Of a stretch of DNA of 50,448 nt, positions 16,615-31,311 are shown piece after piece. The DNA is from Candidatus Saccharimonadota bacterium. Lineage in GTDB: Bacteria > Patescibacteriota > Saccharimonadia > Saccharimonadales > UBA4665. Numbering within the stretch: position 1 is the stretch's first letter; each line of letters opens with the position of its first letter. The stretch is taken from assembly GCA_027371825.1 (NCBI GenBank), contig DAHXLE010000019.1:1-50448 (forward strand), given 5' to 3'. The notes under the pieces are model-generated. The model did not search any database, had not been told where the DNA came from, and was given only the letters and a program-made list of their open reading frames with translations. Made by a program: the position numbers and the translations under genes.

Positions 16615-16838
16615 GTAAGGCTCGCATAGGACTTTTTGGTTTTAGAATTCGGTCAGTATATTTTGTCGTACTTCCTTAATAAATTAAGCGGATGGGGTGA
16701 ATTTGACGTTCAATATTACTAAGACAAACATTTATCTCGGTTTCAGTATATGTATGATCAATCCGTACCGTGCATTGAATTACTGGATATTTAGGTTATA
16801 GTAAATAATAGCGTTTCGTCGCTACATAACCTGACGGA

Positions 16839-17231
16839 ATGTGTTCGTCGACAGAGAGGTCATCATTGAGAGAAAATTCAACAGTTAGCCCGCAAGCCTA
16901 TGTTTTGCGGGTTCTCAAGACGATGGGCATGATGTATTGTGCCGAAAGTCTAGTTGGACGGCTGACAAAAAGGAGAATACCCAAATCCAGGCTACTGGTT
17001 TTTCTGATCGGTAGTCTCTGGATTACCCAGTCGGGCTTGGCGTTTATGGATCTTATGAGTGGGGCAGATAGGTCGGTAGCCTATACCGAAAATTTCAGTA
17101 AGCTGCCTCGGTCGGTAAACGCATCGGTCATAGCGGCATCTACCGGACCAGTGCAAGTCGGTTGTTTTGTAGCAACAGTCCTATTCGGACTTTACCAAGA
17201 CATGCACGGTAGAATCAGGCCCGGTAAATAA
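16839..17231 (+). CDS. possible small membrane protein, hypothetical
   Basis: 130-aa ORF ending just before a strong hairpin; one or two hydrophobic segments; no recognised motif; the 5' part is also palindrome-rich. Confidence 0.4.
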   Translation: MCSSTERSSLRENSTVSPQAYVLRVLKTMGMMYCAESLVGRLTKRRIPKSRLLVFLIGSLWITQSGLAFMDLMSGADRSVAYTENFSKLPRSVNASVIAASTGPVQVGCFVATVLFGLYQDMHGRIRPGK

Positions 17232-17243
17232 AAGTCCAATAGG

Positions 17244-17302
17244 CTCCGGATATCGGATGCGTTCAAGAATGCAACATTCTATCTTGAACGCTCCGATCGG
17301 AG
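17244..17302. terminator. long stem-loop between convergent ORFs, possible bidirectional terminator
   Basis: CTCCG-gat-ATCGGA-t-GCGTTCA-AGAATG-CAA-CATTCT-atct-TGAACGC-TCCGAT-CGGAG (~24 bp paired); no strong U-tract. Confidence 0.6.
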
Positions 17303-17374
17303 TACATTTAGCGGCAAGAGCCACAAAAACCCCAACCACCCTAAAACCTAACCTCTGTCGACATAAATCCTAAA

Positions 17375-26218: not shown

Positions 26219-28003
26219 TCAGATTGCTTCAATTTCGTACTTCTTTAGACGTTTTTCCCCTGCAGTTGTGTGTATTTTTTGAAAATTCAGTAATTTAGCG
26301 TAGATTCCACCGCTATTCTCTAACTCCTCGGGTGTTCCGATTTCTTGAACAATGCCTCCATCGATAGTAATTATTCTGTCGACTGAAGCAATTGTGCTTA
26401 GTCGATGCGCGATAATTAATGTAGTTCTTCCTTTCATGAGTCGCGACAAGGCCTGCTGAACCTTGCGCTCGCTTTTCGTGTCTAAACTTGATGTCGCTTC
26501 ATCCAATATTAGTATCGGGGCGTCTTTTAGAATTGCTCGGGCGATGGCTATCCGCTGCTTTTGACCACCACTCAGTCGTAAACCTCTTTCACCAATTTCA
26601 GTATCGTAGCCCTTCTTAAATTTTGATATGAATTCATGAGCATTCGCCGATTTAGCTGCGGATATTATAGCTCGATCGGTGGCTTGAGCCGACCCATAGG
26701 ATATGTTCTCTCTTATGGTTCCGCTGAATAGATAGGGCTCTTGGAAGACTACGGCAATCGACTCCCTGAGCGATTCCTGCGTTACTTTATTGATATTTTG
26801 GCCATCAATAAGAATTTCTCCGTTTTTAATAGCATAAAGGTGCAGGATCAAACTGGTAATCGTTGTTTTTCCTTGTCCACTTTCTCCGACCAAAGCCGCT
26901 TTCATGCCCGGCTCCAACGAAAAACTGATTTGTTTTAATACTAACGGGCTACCGGGATAGTGAAAGACTACGTTTTTAAATTCTATACTCGCAGACTGGA
27001 TTATTAATTTCTTAGCATTTTTGTCATCTGTTAGATCCGGCCTGACGTCCATAGCATCAAAATAATCTTTGGTGTTGGCGACGGCTCTTTGTGCTTGGTC
27101 AACTACAAAGCTGATACTAAATATAGGTATCCGTATCAGCATGGCGTATTGAATCAGCATAACCATAGTCCCCAGACTGTATAGACCGTGAGCGGTTTCG
27201 ACAAAGATGTAGACAAACACTAGTAAAAAAATAACGTTCAGTACTAAGCGCCGGAGCACATCTTGTTTATGCCAAAACCTACTCTGTGGACGAGTGGTTT
27301 TTACGACCGTTTCAAACCGTTTATTAAAGTACTTGAGTTCACTGGCTTCTCTTAGAAAACTTTTGACGACCTTAATTTGCCCTATGCTCTCGGCAAAACG
27401 GCCGCTTGCTATATCAAGCTGTTCATTGATTTTTTTCTGATAGCTTTGCCATTTTCCGCTAGTTTTGATAGTAAACCCTATGAATATGGGGTAGAGCGAG
27501 AGCAGCATTAAAGCTACCGGCCAAGCATATATGGCGACGATTATCAGCGTAAATATGGTAGAGAAAATAAATTGAAGAAAGTTATTGCTAACCATCTGAA
27601 TAAAGTCCGTGATCTGATTAATGCCTCGGTTCATTCGGTTTATGATCTTACCTGTCAGTTCTGAATCGAAGTACGCCTGCGGAAGGGTTAAGAGGTGTTC
27701 GTAGTATCTTTGGCTCATTAATCGCTGTAACTTGACGGCAACCATGTCACCCAAATAGCCTCCTATGTTGGACATCAACGTTTGACCTACATCGGTTACA
27801 AAAATTAAGACAGCATAGAGTGCCACTAAGTCAATGTCAGCCTTACCCCCGGATAAAAGCTTAGTAATTTGATCTATGGCACCCTTAGTAAATAGCGGCT
27901 GAAGCTGGCTCATCGCCGCCATCAAAATCGTGAAGACTCCAACGCCAATGTAATATCGCCAAAGAGACGATCCAAATTTAAATATTCTTATAATATGTTT
28001 CAT
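26219..28003 (-). CDS. ABC transporter, fused permease/ATP-binding protein
   Basis: ALVGESGQGKTTITSLI Walker A, LSGGQKQRIAIARAIL signature, six-TM N-terminus. Confidence 0.95.
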   Translation of the reverse strand: MKHIIRIFKFGSSLWRYYIGVGVFTILMAAMSQLQPLFTKGAIDQITKLLSGGKADIDLVALYAVLIFVTDVGQTLMSNIGGYLGDMVAVKLQRLMSQRYYEHLLTLPQAYFDSELTGKIINRMNRGINQITDFIQMVSNNFLQFIFSTIFTLIIVAIYAWPVALMLLSLYPIFIGFTIKTSGKWQSYQKKINEQLDIASGRFAESIGQIKVVKSFLREASELKYFNKRFETVVKTTRPQSRFWHKQDVLRRLVLNVIFLLVFVYIFVETAHGLYSLGTMVMLIQYAMLIRIPIFSISFVVDQAQRAVANTKDYFDAMDVRPDLTDDKNAKKLIIQSASIEFKNVVFHYPGSPLVLKQISFSLEPGMKAALVGESGQGKTTITSLILHLYAIKNGEILIDGQNINKVTQESLRESIAVVFQEPYLFSGTIRENISYGSAQATDRAIISAAKSANAHEFISKFKKGYDTEIGERGLRLSGGQKQRIAIARAILKDAPILILDEATSSLDTKSERKVQQALSRLMKGRTTLIIAHRLSTIASVDRIITIDGGIVQEIGTPEELENSGGIYAKLLNFQKIHTTAGEKRLKKYEIEAI

Positions 28004-28124
28004 GCGGAACTAGTATTATTTTTAGTGTTTTATTGAGCCTTATAATAAATAACGTCAACTTGATTTGTGGCGAATAATAAGTAAAAACAGGCATGATTGT
28101 TGAGTGAGGGGTGGCGGGTGGAGG

Positions 28125-28590
28125 AAAAGCATAAAATTGCTTTTAACTGACTCTTTCCGCGGATCACGCATCTATTTTTGTTGACGTTTGAACCCCGGAG
28201 ATATTCTTACATCCTATTCGTACGACAGTGATACGAATGATCAGTTTGAATACCCCCGGGGCTTGTGACGCGCGAAGTCTTTCTATCAGTTCGCTACGAT
28301 GCTCACCAATAGACTGCCAAGGCCTCGCTGCTGTGAACGACTCAACCAACCCTGGTCGGGGATCCGGTTCTTCATGAACGGATTTTTTTCCATCATGAAG
28401 TAGTCGTCCACAACAACCTAAGAGCAACCGCCGTTACTCCTTTAAATTTAGCAGGAAAACTCCCCCTAGGAAGAGCTCTGTGGGAGCGCTCAAGATTGTT
28501 TTCCTGCCCAGAAGAGGGCGCTCGAGACACACGTCTTCTGGTGTGGAGGTAGAGGTTTAAATCCCGATTGGCCCAGGGATTAACCCATAG
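28125..28590 (-). ncRNA. candidate large structured RNA of unknown class
   Basis: series of long near-perfect stems in a non-coding region: 28554-28585, 28508-28541, 28451-28507, 28327-28417 (15 bp, with inner hairpin 28370-28400), 28193-28261, and 28125-28144 terminator-like hairpin; A-rich loops on the minus strand. Confidence 0.65.
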
Positions 28591-28812
28591 CTCCAAACAT
28601 TGTCATTAAAAATAGTGTTAATAATGTCAGCTTAGCTGCTCCATCATCTGAAGCGGCCGGCCAACATTATTATAATCATGCCTGTTAAGGTGCTTTAGAT
28701 GGAGGAACAACCACCGCACGCGCGATTCGCGCTCAACTCCAAAAAGCTGCACAAAATTTTACAGCAAAAACCGCGTATAGTCAATAATTCCGACTTCACA
28801 TGCCCAGTTAAA

Positions 28813-31311
28813 CTAGAGCCGTTCTGCTTTTAAGCTTTCTTTAGCTCGTAAGGATACTTGATCGAGCAGCGCGTTTACCTCACTGGCGGTCATGGTTTTT
28901 ATATAACTTGATATAGAAAGTCTGAGTGTAATATGTTGATAATTCGTGTCTTTAGGGGATTGGTATATATCTACCGGAGTTAGCTTAAAGGTTGTGTTCT
29001 TTGGCGCCTCATCGGCGATGACCTGATGCACAAAATCATAGAGAACCGAATAGCATATATCAACAGGAGCCTTGAGTGATATATCCTGTTCGACACTAGG
29101 AAATTTGGACAAAGGCACATAGCTGGATTCTTTCATGATTACATCGGCCAGAACTGTGGTATCAAGCTCAAACCCGCTGCAATATTTCGGTAGTTTAAGC
29201 TTTGAAGTAACTGACTGCTTAAATTCGCCCAAAATGCCCAAAAATTGCCCGGTTTCTTTTACGCTTACTAATGCCGACCGCCCTTGAAGGTACGGACACA
29301 TGACGGCATATTTTTGGTCTTCTATGCTAATGGGCTTAAAAGACAGTTCTTCGCCACCCGTTAAGACGTTGAGATATTTTAGTGCCATATAGTACGGAGC
29401 ACCTTCGAATAAAATATGATCATTGGCGGCAAATACCAATCCAACATACTGATCTTCAACTGGCAAATTCTCGTTATCCAAACCTCTCTCCTTAGTGTGG
29501 GTCATGCCAATCTCGAACATGGCAAAGCGTTCTGTGCCGTTTTTAATTGCAGCATGAACTTTATCAAGTAGGCTAGGAATAATGCTCATTCTATAAAACT
29601 GGAGGTCAGGACTCAGAGCATTAGCAAGCTGATAAGCCAACTCCTTATTCTGCCCTACGCCGTCAATAAGTTTGCCGTGAACAAAACTATACGTCAAAAC
29701 TTCATTGGCACCTGCCGCACTTAATCTTGAGCGTATTAAACTCTTCGCTTTAAGCAGATAATTTTTGCTTACCGGCGTCAATACTCGGCTTGGCAGTAGT
29801 AACGGCAAATTATCGTATCCCTTAAGACGACCGACCTCCTCCAGAATATCCTCCTGAATGGAGATATCGGTTCTCCAAAACGGAACTCGAATATCGATAA
29901 AGTTGCCGTTGTTATTACATTCAAATTCAACGTTTGATAATAGCTTAGAGACCTCGTCAGACTTAATATTCATGCCCAGCCGTGCTGAGAGAAAATCAGC
30001 GCTGGTCTTAAGTTCCACCGATGATGATTCGGTTTCATGCTTATCATCGACCAAATTACTGCTGATTTTACCGCTACAAATTGTCTCGATATCCCCACAA
30101 ACAGCTCCAAGAACAGCTAAATTTTGCTGAGTACTTTGACCTTTGGTAAATCTGGTTGCGGCTTCCGTAAAAATGCCAAGCTCCATACAACTACGACGTA
30201 TCGAATACATGTCAAATGTTGCGCATTCCAATATGATATTAGTGGTTGATTGACTAACCTCGCATTCAGCTCCACCCATTATCCCCGCTAAGCCGATTGG
30301 GTGCTTGTCGGTAGCAATAACAATATCCTTGTCACTTAACGTTACGATTTTATTATTGATAAGCTTAAGTTGCTCTTTGGGGCTGGCTTTGCGAACAATC
30401 AAGTTCACACTTCCTTCATTTTGCAACTTAATTTTATCGTAATCATAAGCATGTAGTGGCTGGGCAGTAAGTAACATGTAATAGTTGGTTATATCGACTA
30501 CGTTATTGACGGGTTTTTGTCCAAGTCGTACCAGGGCAGATATCAGCCAAAGGGGACTGCCCGTAACCTTTACCCCGGTTATGCCGATGGCCGTAAAACG
30601 TGGAACAAGCTGGTTTAGCTCATTATGGACGCTAAAGTTCAGCTCTGAATTGAAGGTTTCGGTTATATCCCATTTTGTTGCGTACCACGATGGACTTTTA
30701 AACTGCCGACCGCAAATTCCCGCCACTTCCCGGGCTATACCAAGCTGACCAAACAAATCGGGACGATGCGTGAACATCTTGTTTTCTATGTCTATGACAA
30801 TGTCGTCTAGCCCGTATTTGGTAGCAAAATCCTCGCCAGCATCAACCTGATCAAGTATGTCGACAATCCCGTTATGATCATCGCCCAAACCAAGTTCCCG
30901 AGCGCTGGCAAGCATGCCGTTACTCTTTAGGCCTCTTATGTCTCTAACTTCCAGTTTATAGGGATCATTATCCGTAGTCTGCGGTACGATAGTCCCGGGC
31001 GAAAGCCATACCGCCGACATATTGGCTCTTACGTTCGAAGCCCCGCAGACCACCTGAACATGCCCATCGGCGTTCCGCTCGACATCTTTGACTACTCCTC
31101 CGTCATCGATCATACATAAATGCAAATGGTCAGAATTAGGGTGGTTTACGCACGAAATAACTTTTACGATTATTACTCCTTTATATTTCTGTCCGTAGTC
31201 ATATACAGCCTCAACACCACCAAGTTGCGCGCCTATCTTTTCTATTAGTTCGTCTTTCGGCGGAAGATCAAAGTCTACCAACTGGCGAATCATATTCAAA
31301 CTTACTCTCAT
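28813..31311 (-). CDS. pheT: phenylalanine--tRNA ligase beta subunit
   Basis: EMAP-like domain VISCVNHPNSDHLHLC, B5 domain, C-terminal FDX-ACB domain; downstream of pheS. Confidence 0.97.
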   Translation of the reverse strand: MRVSLNMIRQLVDFDLPPKDELIEKIGAQLGGVEAVYDYGQKYKGVIIVKVISCVNHPNSDHLHLCMIDDGGVVKDVERNADGHVQVVCGASNVRANMSAVWLSPGTIVPQTTDNDPYKLEVRDIRGLKSNGMLASARELGLGDDHNGIVDILDQVDAGEDFATKYGLDDIVIDIENKMFTHRPDLFGQLGIAREVAGICGRQFKSPSWYATKWDITETFNSELNFSVHNELNQLVPRFTAIGITGVKVTGSPLWLISALVRLGQKPVNNVVDITNYYMLLTAQPLHAYDYDKIKLQNEGSVNLIVRKASPKEQLKLINNKIVTLSDKDIVIATDKHPIGLAGIMGGAECEVSQSTTNIILECATFDMYSIRRSCMELGIFTEAATRFTKGQSTQQNLAVLGAVCGDIETICSGKISSNLVDDKHETESSSVELKTSADFLSARLGMNIKSDEVSKLLSNVEFECNNNGNFIDIRVPFWRTDISIQEDILEEVGRLKGYDNLPLLLPSRVLTPVSKNYLLKAKSLIRSRLSAAGANEVLTYSFVHGKLIDGVGQNKELAYQLANALSPDLQFYRMSIIPSLLDKVHAAIKNGTERFAMFEIGMTHTKERGLDNENLPVEDQYVGLVFAANDHILFEGAPYYMALKYLNVLTGGEELSFKPISIEDQKYAVMCPYLQGRSALVSVKETGQFLGILGEFKQSVTSKLKLPKYCSGFELDTTVLADVIMKESSYVPLSKFPSVEQDISLKAPVDICYSVLYDFVHQVIADEAPKNTTFKLTPVDIYQSPKDTNYQHITLRLSISSYIKTMTASEVNALLDQVSLRAKESLKAERL

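Follow-up and report, generated by a model that had tools for sequence, protein, structure and literature searches.

The window analysed here is the whole 50,448-nucleotide stretch of contig DAHXLE010000019.1 from a Candidatus Saccharimonadota genome (G000). On its minus strand lie pheT (28813-31311) and a gene for an ABC exporter (26219-28003, with Pfam ABC_membrane and ABC_tran domains), and the minus-strand gap between the two, 28004-28812, contains a run of hairpins listed in the original prediction. A long-range stem, P1, encloses 601 nt of this gap, and the whole P1-closed structured RNA occupies 28086-28686 on the minus strand. The congener G001 is the second of the two genus genomes compared. 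The order pheT-RNA-ABC is found in G000, G001, G017, G052, and G098, with pheT directly upstream of the element in all five. A search downstream of pheT in relatives shows that pheT is not the constant neighbour; by synteny this role belongs to the ABC exporter gene, which lies downstream of the RNA across species. The original prediction placed the element between pheT and an ABC gene; of the two, the ABC gene is the constant one. G042, from the same family as G098, has a pheT-to-ABC gap of ~40 nt and no element. In a relative (L031 4483-4990), the pheT-ABC interval is full of palindromic repeats of the GTCATTCCAGACTTGATCTGGAATC type and has no P1.

Two short ORFs fall in the element, 28164-28427 and 28393-28596. 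Neither has a Pfam match and no counterpart was seen in G001, and a coding origin of the window element is rejected; their earlier description as short and unconvincing held. A cmscan of the element against Rfam 15 returned chance microRNA matches only, and ARAGORN detected neither tRNA nor tmRNA in it. No reverse transcriptase of the kind required by a retron is adjacent, the neighbours being pheT and the ABC exporter gene.

Folding and putative transcription signals of the window element

The MFE fold of the minus strand is a predicted seven-branch multiloop closed by P1. In the window, P1 has 13 bp, pairing 28686-28674 with 28098-28086. Its 5' arm AACAGGCATGATT (28674-28686; family consensus about CYTTRACAGGYRTRAT) is preceded by CACCTT, and its 3' arm AATCATGCCTGTT (28086-28098) is followed by a T-rich stretch. 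Branch 1 is a hairpin of 54 nt (28619-28672), and branch 2 is one of 52 nt (28544-28595) that contains the previously listed GGTTAATCCC stem. Branches 3 (CCAGAAGA/TCTTCTGG, 28508-28541) and 4 (GCAGGAAAAC/GTTTTCCTGC, 28451-28507) are followed by the branch 5 hairpin (28420-28441), the 5' side of which is overlapped by the SD-like word AAAGGAGTAAC, present in G001 too. Branch 6 is a long two-armed hairpin of 91 nt (28327-28417). Branch 7 is a composite domain (28106-28326) including the CCCCGG hairpin (~28261-28193) and the AAAAGCA hairpin (28144-28125). The claim of consecutive minus-strand hairpins held in full: those of branches 2, 3, 4, and 6 and the two within branch 7 are all in the sequence, and the MFE fold includes every hairpin listed. 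The claimed extent of 28125-28590 is corrected to 28086-28686, the closing stem having been missed.

Compared with dinucleotide shuffles, a 703-nt region around the element has a z-score of -7.85. For the P1-closed region, z is -9.8 on the sense strand versus -6.2 on the opposite strand with 100 shuffles, and -13.6 versus -5.3 with 40 shuffles. The 200-nt windows at the element are among those with the lowest z-scores in a sliding scan of the 50-kb window, and its interval is among the top structured intergenic regions of both genus genomes.

Several other structured or conserved intervals were observed. In the window, strong structure is seen a second time at 16615-17374 (z -5.9 for 781 nt; z -7.0 for 16995-17374), an interval flanked by genes for fructose-bisphosphate aldolase and a transketolase C-terminal part; the syntenic gap in G001 is ~3 kb. 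A 619-nt structured interval at 29484-30102 of G000 contig C1 (in L220; z -7), whose flanking genes are ~85 nt apart in G001, is read as a species-specific structured insertion. About 388 nt of presumed non-coding sequence at 3932-4320 of L217 (G000 contig C34) is 87% identical to 55600-56002 of G001 contig C5 and has no Rfam match, and is a candidate conserved, slow-evolving RNA. Contig C10 of G001 (L166, 6090-6313) holds a group I intron match of 62.5 bits, above the gathering score.

A promoter-like pair, TTGACT-17-TAAAAT, is located at 28756-28784 on the minus strand and agrees with 10 of 12 consensus positions, which is a consensus match only. The equivalent site of G001 has TTGACT-17-TAGCAT, and most homologues carry TATAAT-like boxes upstream of P1; in a promoter scan of the region, the number of such consensus matches was not above that in shuffles. 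Comparison with the upstream sequences of other members identifies a leader motif, GCTTTTTGGAGTTGAG, at 28732-28747 (minus strand), with a family consensus of about GYTTTTGGTTGAGT. A stable terminator-like hairpin lies 3' of P1 in several members, with a T run in G044, G052, G116, and G098. The promoter boxes, the leader, and the post-P1 hairpins are resemblances to consensus that recur across members, inferred from sequence alone without transcript data. The word CUUURACA before P1 resembles the E. coli boxA, and a NusB/S10 boxA antitermination signal was considered; it is not supported because the 16S leaders of the relatives G052, G098, and G055 bear a different motif (CGTTAAAAATTG, CCTTAAAAACT).

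Homologues and covariation of the closing stem

Ten homologues of the element were found in Saccharibacteria, giving 11 loci in six taxonomic families together with the window. In nine of these the gene directly downstream is the same ABC exporter, and in a tenth the element precedes a similar ABC start. The equivalent place in G001 is an interval of 854 nt that has in common with the window AGCACCTTAACAGGCATGAT towards its beginning (20/20) and ATCATGCCTGTT towards its end, with only short shared words between them; these conserved end segments pair as P1 in the MFE fold of both. The P1 motif is single-copy in G000 and in G001, both examined in full. Intervals upstream of the same ABC gene in relatives are likewise large and unusually structured, and four of them have a closing P1 whose arms are altered yet complementary. 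When 3.9 Mb, both complete genus assemblies among them, were scanned for the stem pattern on both strands, only ABC-upstream loci were returned, and G098 and G116 were newly added. A pattern search across 393 genomes of the class gained G017, and examination of twenty additional ABC-upstream regions gave no new member. The distribution is sporadic, with the element in 8 of the 105 ABC-upstream regions examined.

G085 was found independently of P1, with a profile of the ORF of G044 and G055 (E 3.5e-16). Its element, 607 nt long, precedes an ABC start and contains the ORF, and its P1, GACAAGACGATTT/AAATCGTCTTGTC, shows a GC-to-AT double change inside an otherwise constant core. The same profile found G002, whose version of the element carries a frameshifted ORF and is ~34 kb away from the ABC gene, as well as G106, which has a protein relative in a unit without P1. 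Member lengths are 509-859 nt, the short version of G002 being 344 nt. No homologue was detected in phage or plasmid records by DNA similarity, pattern scans of IMG/VR gave no contig with a convincing paired P1, and the proteins of the small ORFs were not found in phages.

P1 is present in all 11 members, and 93.5% of its cells are paired. Over these members, compensatory double changes occur in 10 of its 14 pairs, with 34 such cells versus 9.2 expected. Its covariation score is 0.600 versus 0.183 in shuffles, none of 500 shuffles scored as high, and no slid register of P1 comes near the covariation of the true one. The paired fraction is inflated by the selection of most members for having P1, which does not apply to G085. 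In the nine members first collected, sense z-scores range from -5.9 to -13.6, the sense strand is stronger than the antisense in every case, and P1 is part of each MFE fold with a mean pair probability of 0.89-0.98. Folding of G085 is slightly stronger in sense (z -6.6 versus -5.9), and the two strands of the short G002 version are no different. In most members the MFE fold is a multiloop that P1 closes, and ~6 to 11 branches are common. The body cannot be aligned between members save within one genus (G052 and G116, 86% identical), and with no alignable body in most members, covariation supports P1 only, plus the tRNA-like domain in that genus.

The proposal that the structured RNA is of a new class, or a very divergent one, is supported: no Rfam family matches the element, it has homologues, and strong covariation is seen in their closing stem. 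Besides P1, the original prediction had not recognised the promoter-like boxes, the leader motif, or the association with the ABC gene, nor the tRNA-like domain and small ORFs of the relatives.

tRNA-like domains and small ORFs in the family

A tRNA-like cloverleaf occurs in four of the 11 members, G015, G052, G085, and G116, and all four fold as such in isolation. The window member and G001 have no tRNA-like domain. The domain of G052 and G116 is scored as tRNA by cmscan (53.3 and 49.7 bits); its T and D arms look canonical and its anticodon arm is too long. Compensatory changes between these two genomes are seen in this domain and in an adjacent hairpin. The G015 cloverleaf is called tRNA-Gly by ARAGORN. 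In G052 and G116 the loop includes GAA, which is the Phe anticodon, and this connection is only a lead because the loops of G015 and G085 differ. Such tRNA-like domains with an over-long anticodon stem and GAA in the loop are located at L096 918-994 and L255 577-654, next to pheT in G052.

Small ORFs are found inside the element in six of the 11 members: G017 (51 aa, with weak zinc-ribbon similarity), G052 and G116 (48 aa), G044 (a frame that requires a CTG start), G055, and G085. A seventh, in G002, is frameshifted, and G000, G001, G015, and G098 have no convincing ORF. A strong SD, such as AAGGAGGTGATT in G085, precedes most of these frames. Anti-SD pairing was considered as a universal trait and rejected, being strong in ORF-bearing members and absent in G000, G001, and G098. 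Related Cys-rich proteins are encoded by four members, G044, G055, G085, and G002, and those of G044 and G055 share 46% identity with the cysteines retained. The conservation of cysteines across families argues for coding in this ORF type, an inference drawn from the sequences. Coding selection is not shown in G052 and G116, between which six codon differences are synonymous and six nonsynonymous. In G106, a small Cys-rich protein (CPGCCPDC...CSTCNSTKHQASC) related to the ORF products of the G044, G055, and G085 elements is encoded as a plain short gene at ~1500-1650 of L374, with a terminator-like hairpin after it.

Interpretation and relation to known RNAs

The main reading takes the element as a stand-alone RNA gene belonging to an undescribed RNA family of Candidatus Saccharibacteria, a scaffold whose ends are locked by P1. 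A probability of about 0.7 is given to this reading, which has no transcript data behind it. Under the same limitation, there is little doubt that the element is a stand-alone structured RNA gene of some kind, and a trans-acting role, as opposed to that of an ABC-gene leader, is inferred with good confidence. Transcription would begin at its own promoter just downstream of pheT, and the RNA would end before the ABC-exporter gene. P1 would hold the ends of the transcript together, putatively protecting them, and would enclose a ring of stable hairpins. The body may be a scaffold that docks to the translation apparatus, and in some species the RNA may double as a messenger for a small Cys-rich protein. 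A translation-linked scaffold or dual-function RNA is less likely than not, the function being inferred, and for the window member the link to translation is an extrapolation because neither it nor G001 has a tRNA-like domain or a convincing ORF. A bolder reading, no more than possible, is that the family is, after tmRNA, a second natural kind of RNA to unite a tRNA-like domain with a small ORF, here one initiated independently, in a single closed scaffold encoded beside the phenylalanyl-tRNA synthetase genes, and that it acts on the translation machinery of ultra-small epibiotic bacteria.

Three rival explanations can be weighed against the stand-alone RNA gene. The element might be a cis-regulatory leader of the ABC exporter gene, a very long riboswitch or attenuator in which P1 and the following hairpin form the switch. 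Nine of 11 members, and probably ten, lie directly upstream of the ABC start on the same strand, and a terminator-like hairpin often stands between P1 and the ABC gene. Against this are the length of 509-859 nt and the internal ORF and tRNA-like domain of some members, the lack of any conserved sequence resembling a ligand pocket, and the lack of visible antiterminator pairing between the 3' arm of P1 and the terminator. Moreover, the short version of G002 is far from its ABC gene, and most orthologous ABC genes have no element, so a leader is unlikely. It is likewise improbable that the element is a structured messenger for a small Cys-rich or other protein, with the fold as a UTR-like stabiliser and the ORF-less members as decayed copies. 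The small ORFs, mostly behind a strong SD, the related proteins of G044, G055, G085, and G002, and the protein relative encoded by G106 in a unit without P1 favour a messenger. However, no convincing ORF is present in the window member (z -13.6) or G098 (z -10.4), which rank with the strongest folders, the same RNA frame hosts unrelated ORFs (the zinc ribbon of G017 and the 48 aa of G052 and G116), and the codon differences between G052 and G116 are evenly divided.

A MITE-like mobile element with terminal inverted repeats, or a P1-bounded hotspot of cargo swapping, with the folding incidental, is the least credible of the three. Its interior is variable and its occurrence sporadic, and related intervals hold other repeats (L031/G035) or are nearly empty (G042). 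In contrast, transposase-recognised repeats need not change jointly, and the P1 arms do so between species. No target-site duplication was seen, the leader outside P1 is conserved, and one strand folds more strongly in nine of nine members tested. A MITE is rejected, as several copies with invariant terminal repeats are lacking; the element is single-copy in both genus genomes, with arms that covary between species.

Known RNA families were also excluded. No RF00023 match was obtained by cmscan in the window, the congener, or the other members, and ARAGORN, applied to the window and to all 11 members, likewise gave none. With ends that form P1 rather than an acceptor stem, and a separate tmRNA elsewhere in G000 (RF00023, 76.8 bits, contig C6), tmRNA is rejected. 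RNase P has no RF00010 match in the element and is absent by model search from the G000 and G001 assemblies, and a clear match is found elsewhere in 12 of 12 relatives tested. This absence briefly suggested a divergent RNase P at the element, and the idea was rejected on grounds of assembly incompleteness. In relatives, rnpB adjoins rplT/infC/RNase HI, and blastx of the flanks found no counterpart in either assembly; incompleteness explains the missing RNase P RNA because the rplT/infC neighbourhood is missing too. The Rfam models of GOLLD, ROOL, and OLE gave no match to E 10 in the window and congener or to E 2 in the other members, and no group I/II intron core was matched by Rfam in the element or congener. 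In the literature searched, no RNA of this sort is described from Saccharibacteria or Patescibacteria.

Among bacterial RNAs, large structured ones are very rare, and new classes have tended to uncover unexpected biology. The present element pairs a covarying closing stem with a body that evolves extremely fast and is almost free of sequence constraint, in small Saccharibacteria genomes that have little room for a dispensable 600-nt RNA. With a stem that is conserved, ends that are defined, and a neighbour that is fixed, it lends itself to direct tests in metatranscriptomes and cultured epibionts.

As in tmRNA (RF00023), a single structured RNA carries both a short frame and a tRNA-like domain in some members. 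Unlike in tmRNA, the tRNA-like domain is internal, the ends are formed by P1 instead of an acceptor stem, and the 3' arms of P1 are followed by TTT, CTT, CGT, and similar words with no CCA. The ORF also has its own SD and start, encodes ~50 aa, and has no ALAA-type end. With GOLLD and ROOL the element shares a large size (about 500-860 nt), an ornate fold, rarity, and an unknown function. The GOLLD linker sometimes contains tRNAs, and pull-downs show ribosomes bound to GOLLD (PMC12286853). In contrast to both, the element is chromosomal beside an ABC gene, with no member found in phage records or IMG/VR and no cmscan match, and its body lacks a conserved region such as GOLLD members share. OLE RNA and the raiA motif are likewise large structured bacterial ncRNAs with their own genes, but the element has no Rfam match to them and differs in hosts, neighbours, and structure. 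RNAIII and SgrS are dual-function bacterial RNAs, structured with a short ORF inside, as in some members; RNAs of this type are not known to have a closing stem or a tRNA-like domain, nor any sequence relation to the element. To our knowledge, the combination of features seen here has no counterpart, and the element fits no described family. GOLLD and tmRNA are its nearest analogues, and it fails the membership tests of both. If it is simply another large scaffold RNA, it would be a variant of the GOLLD/ROOL/OLE kind.
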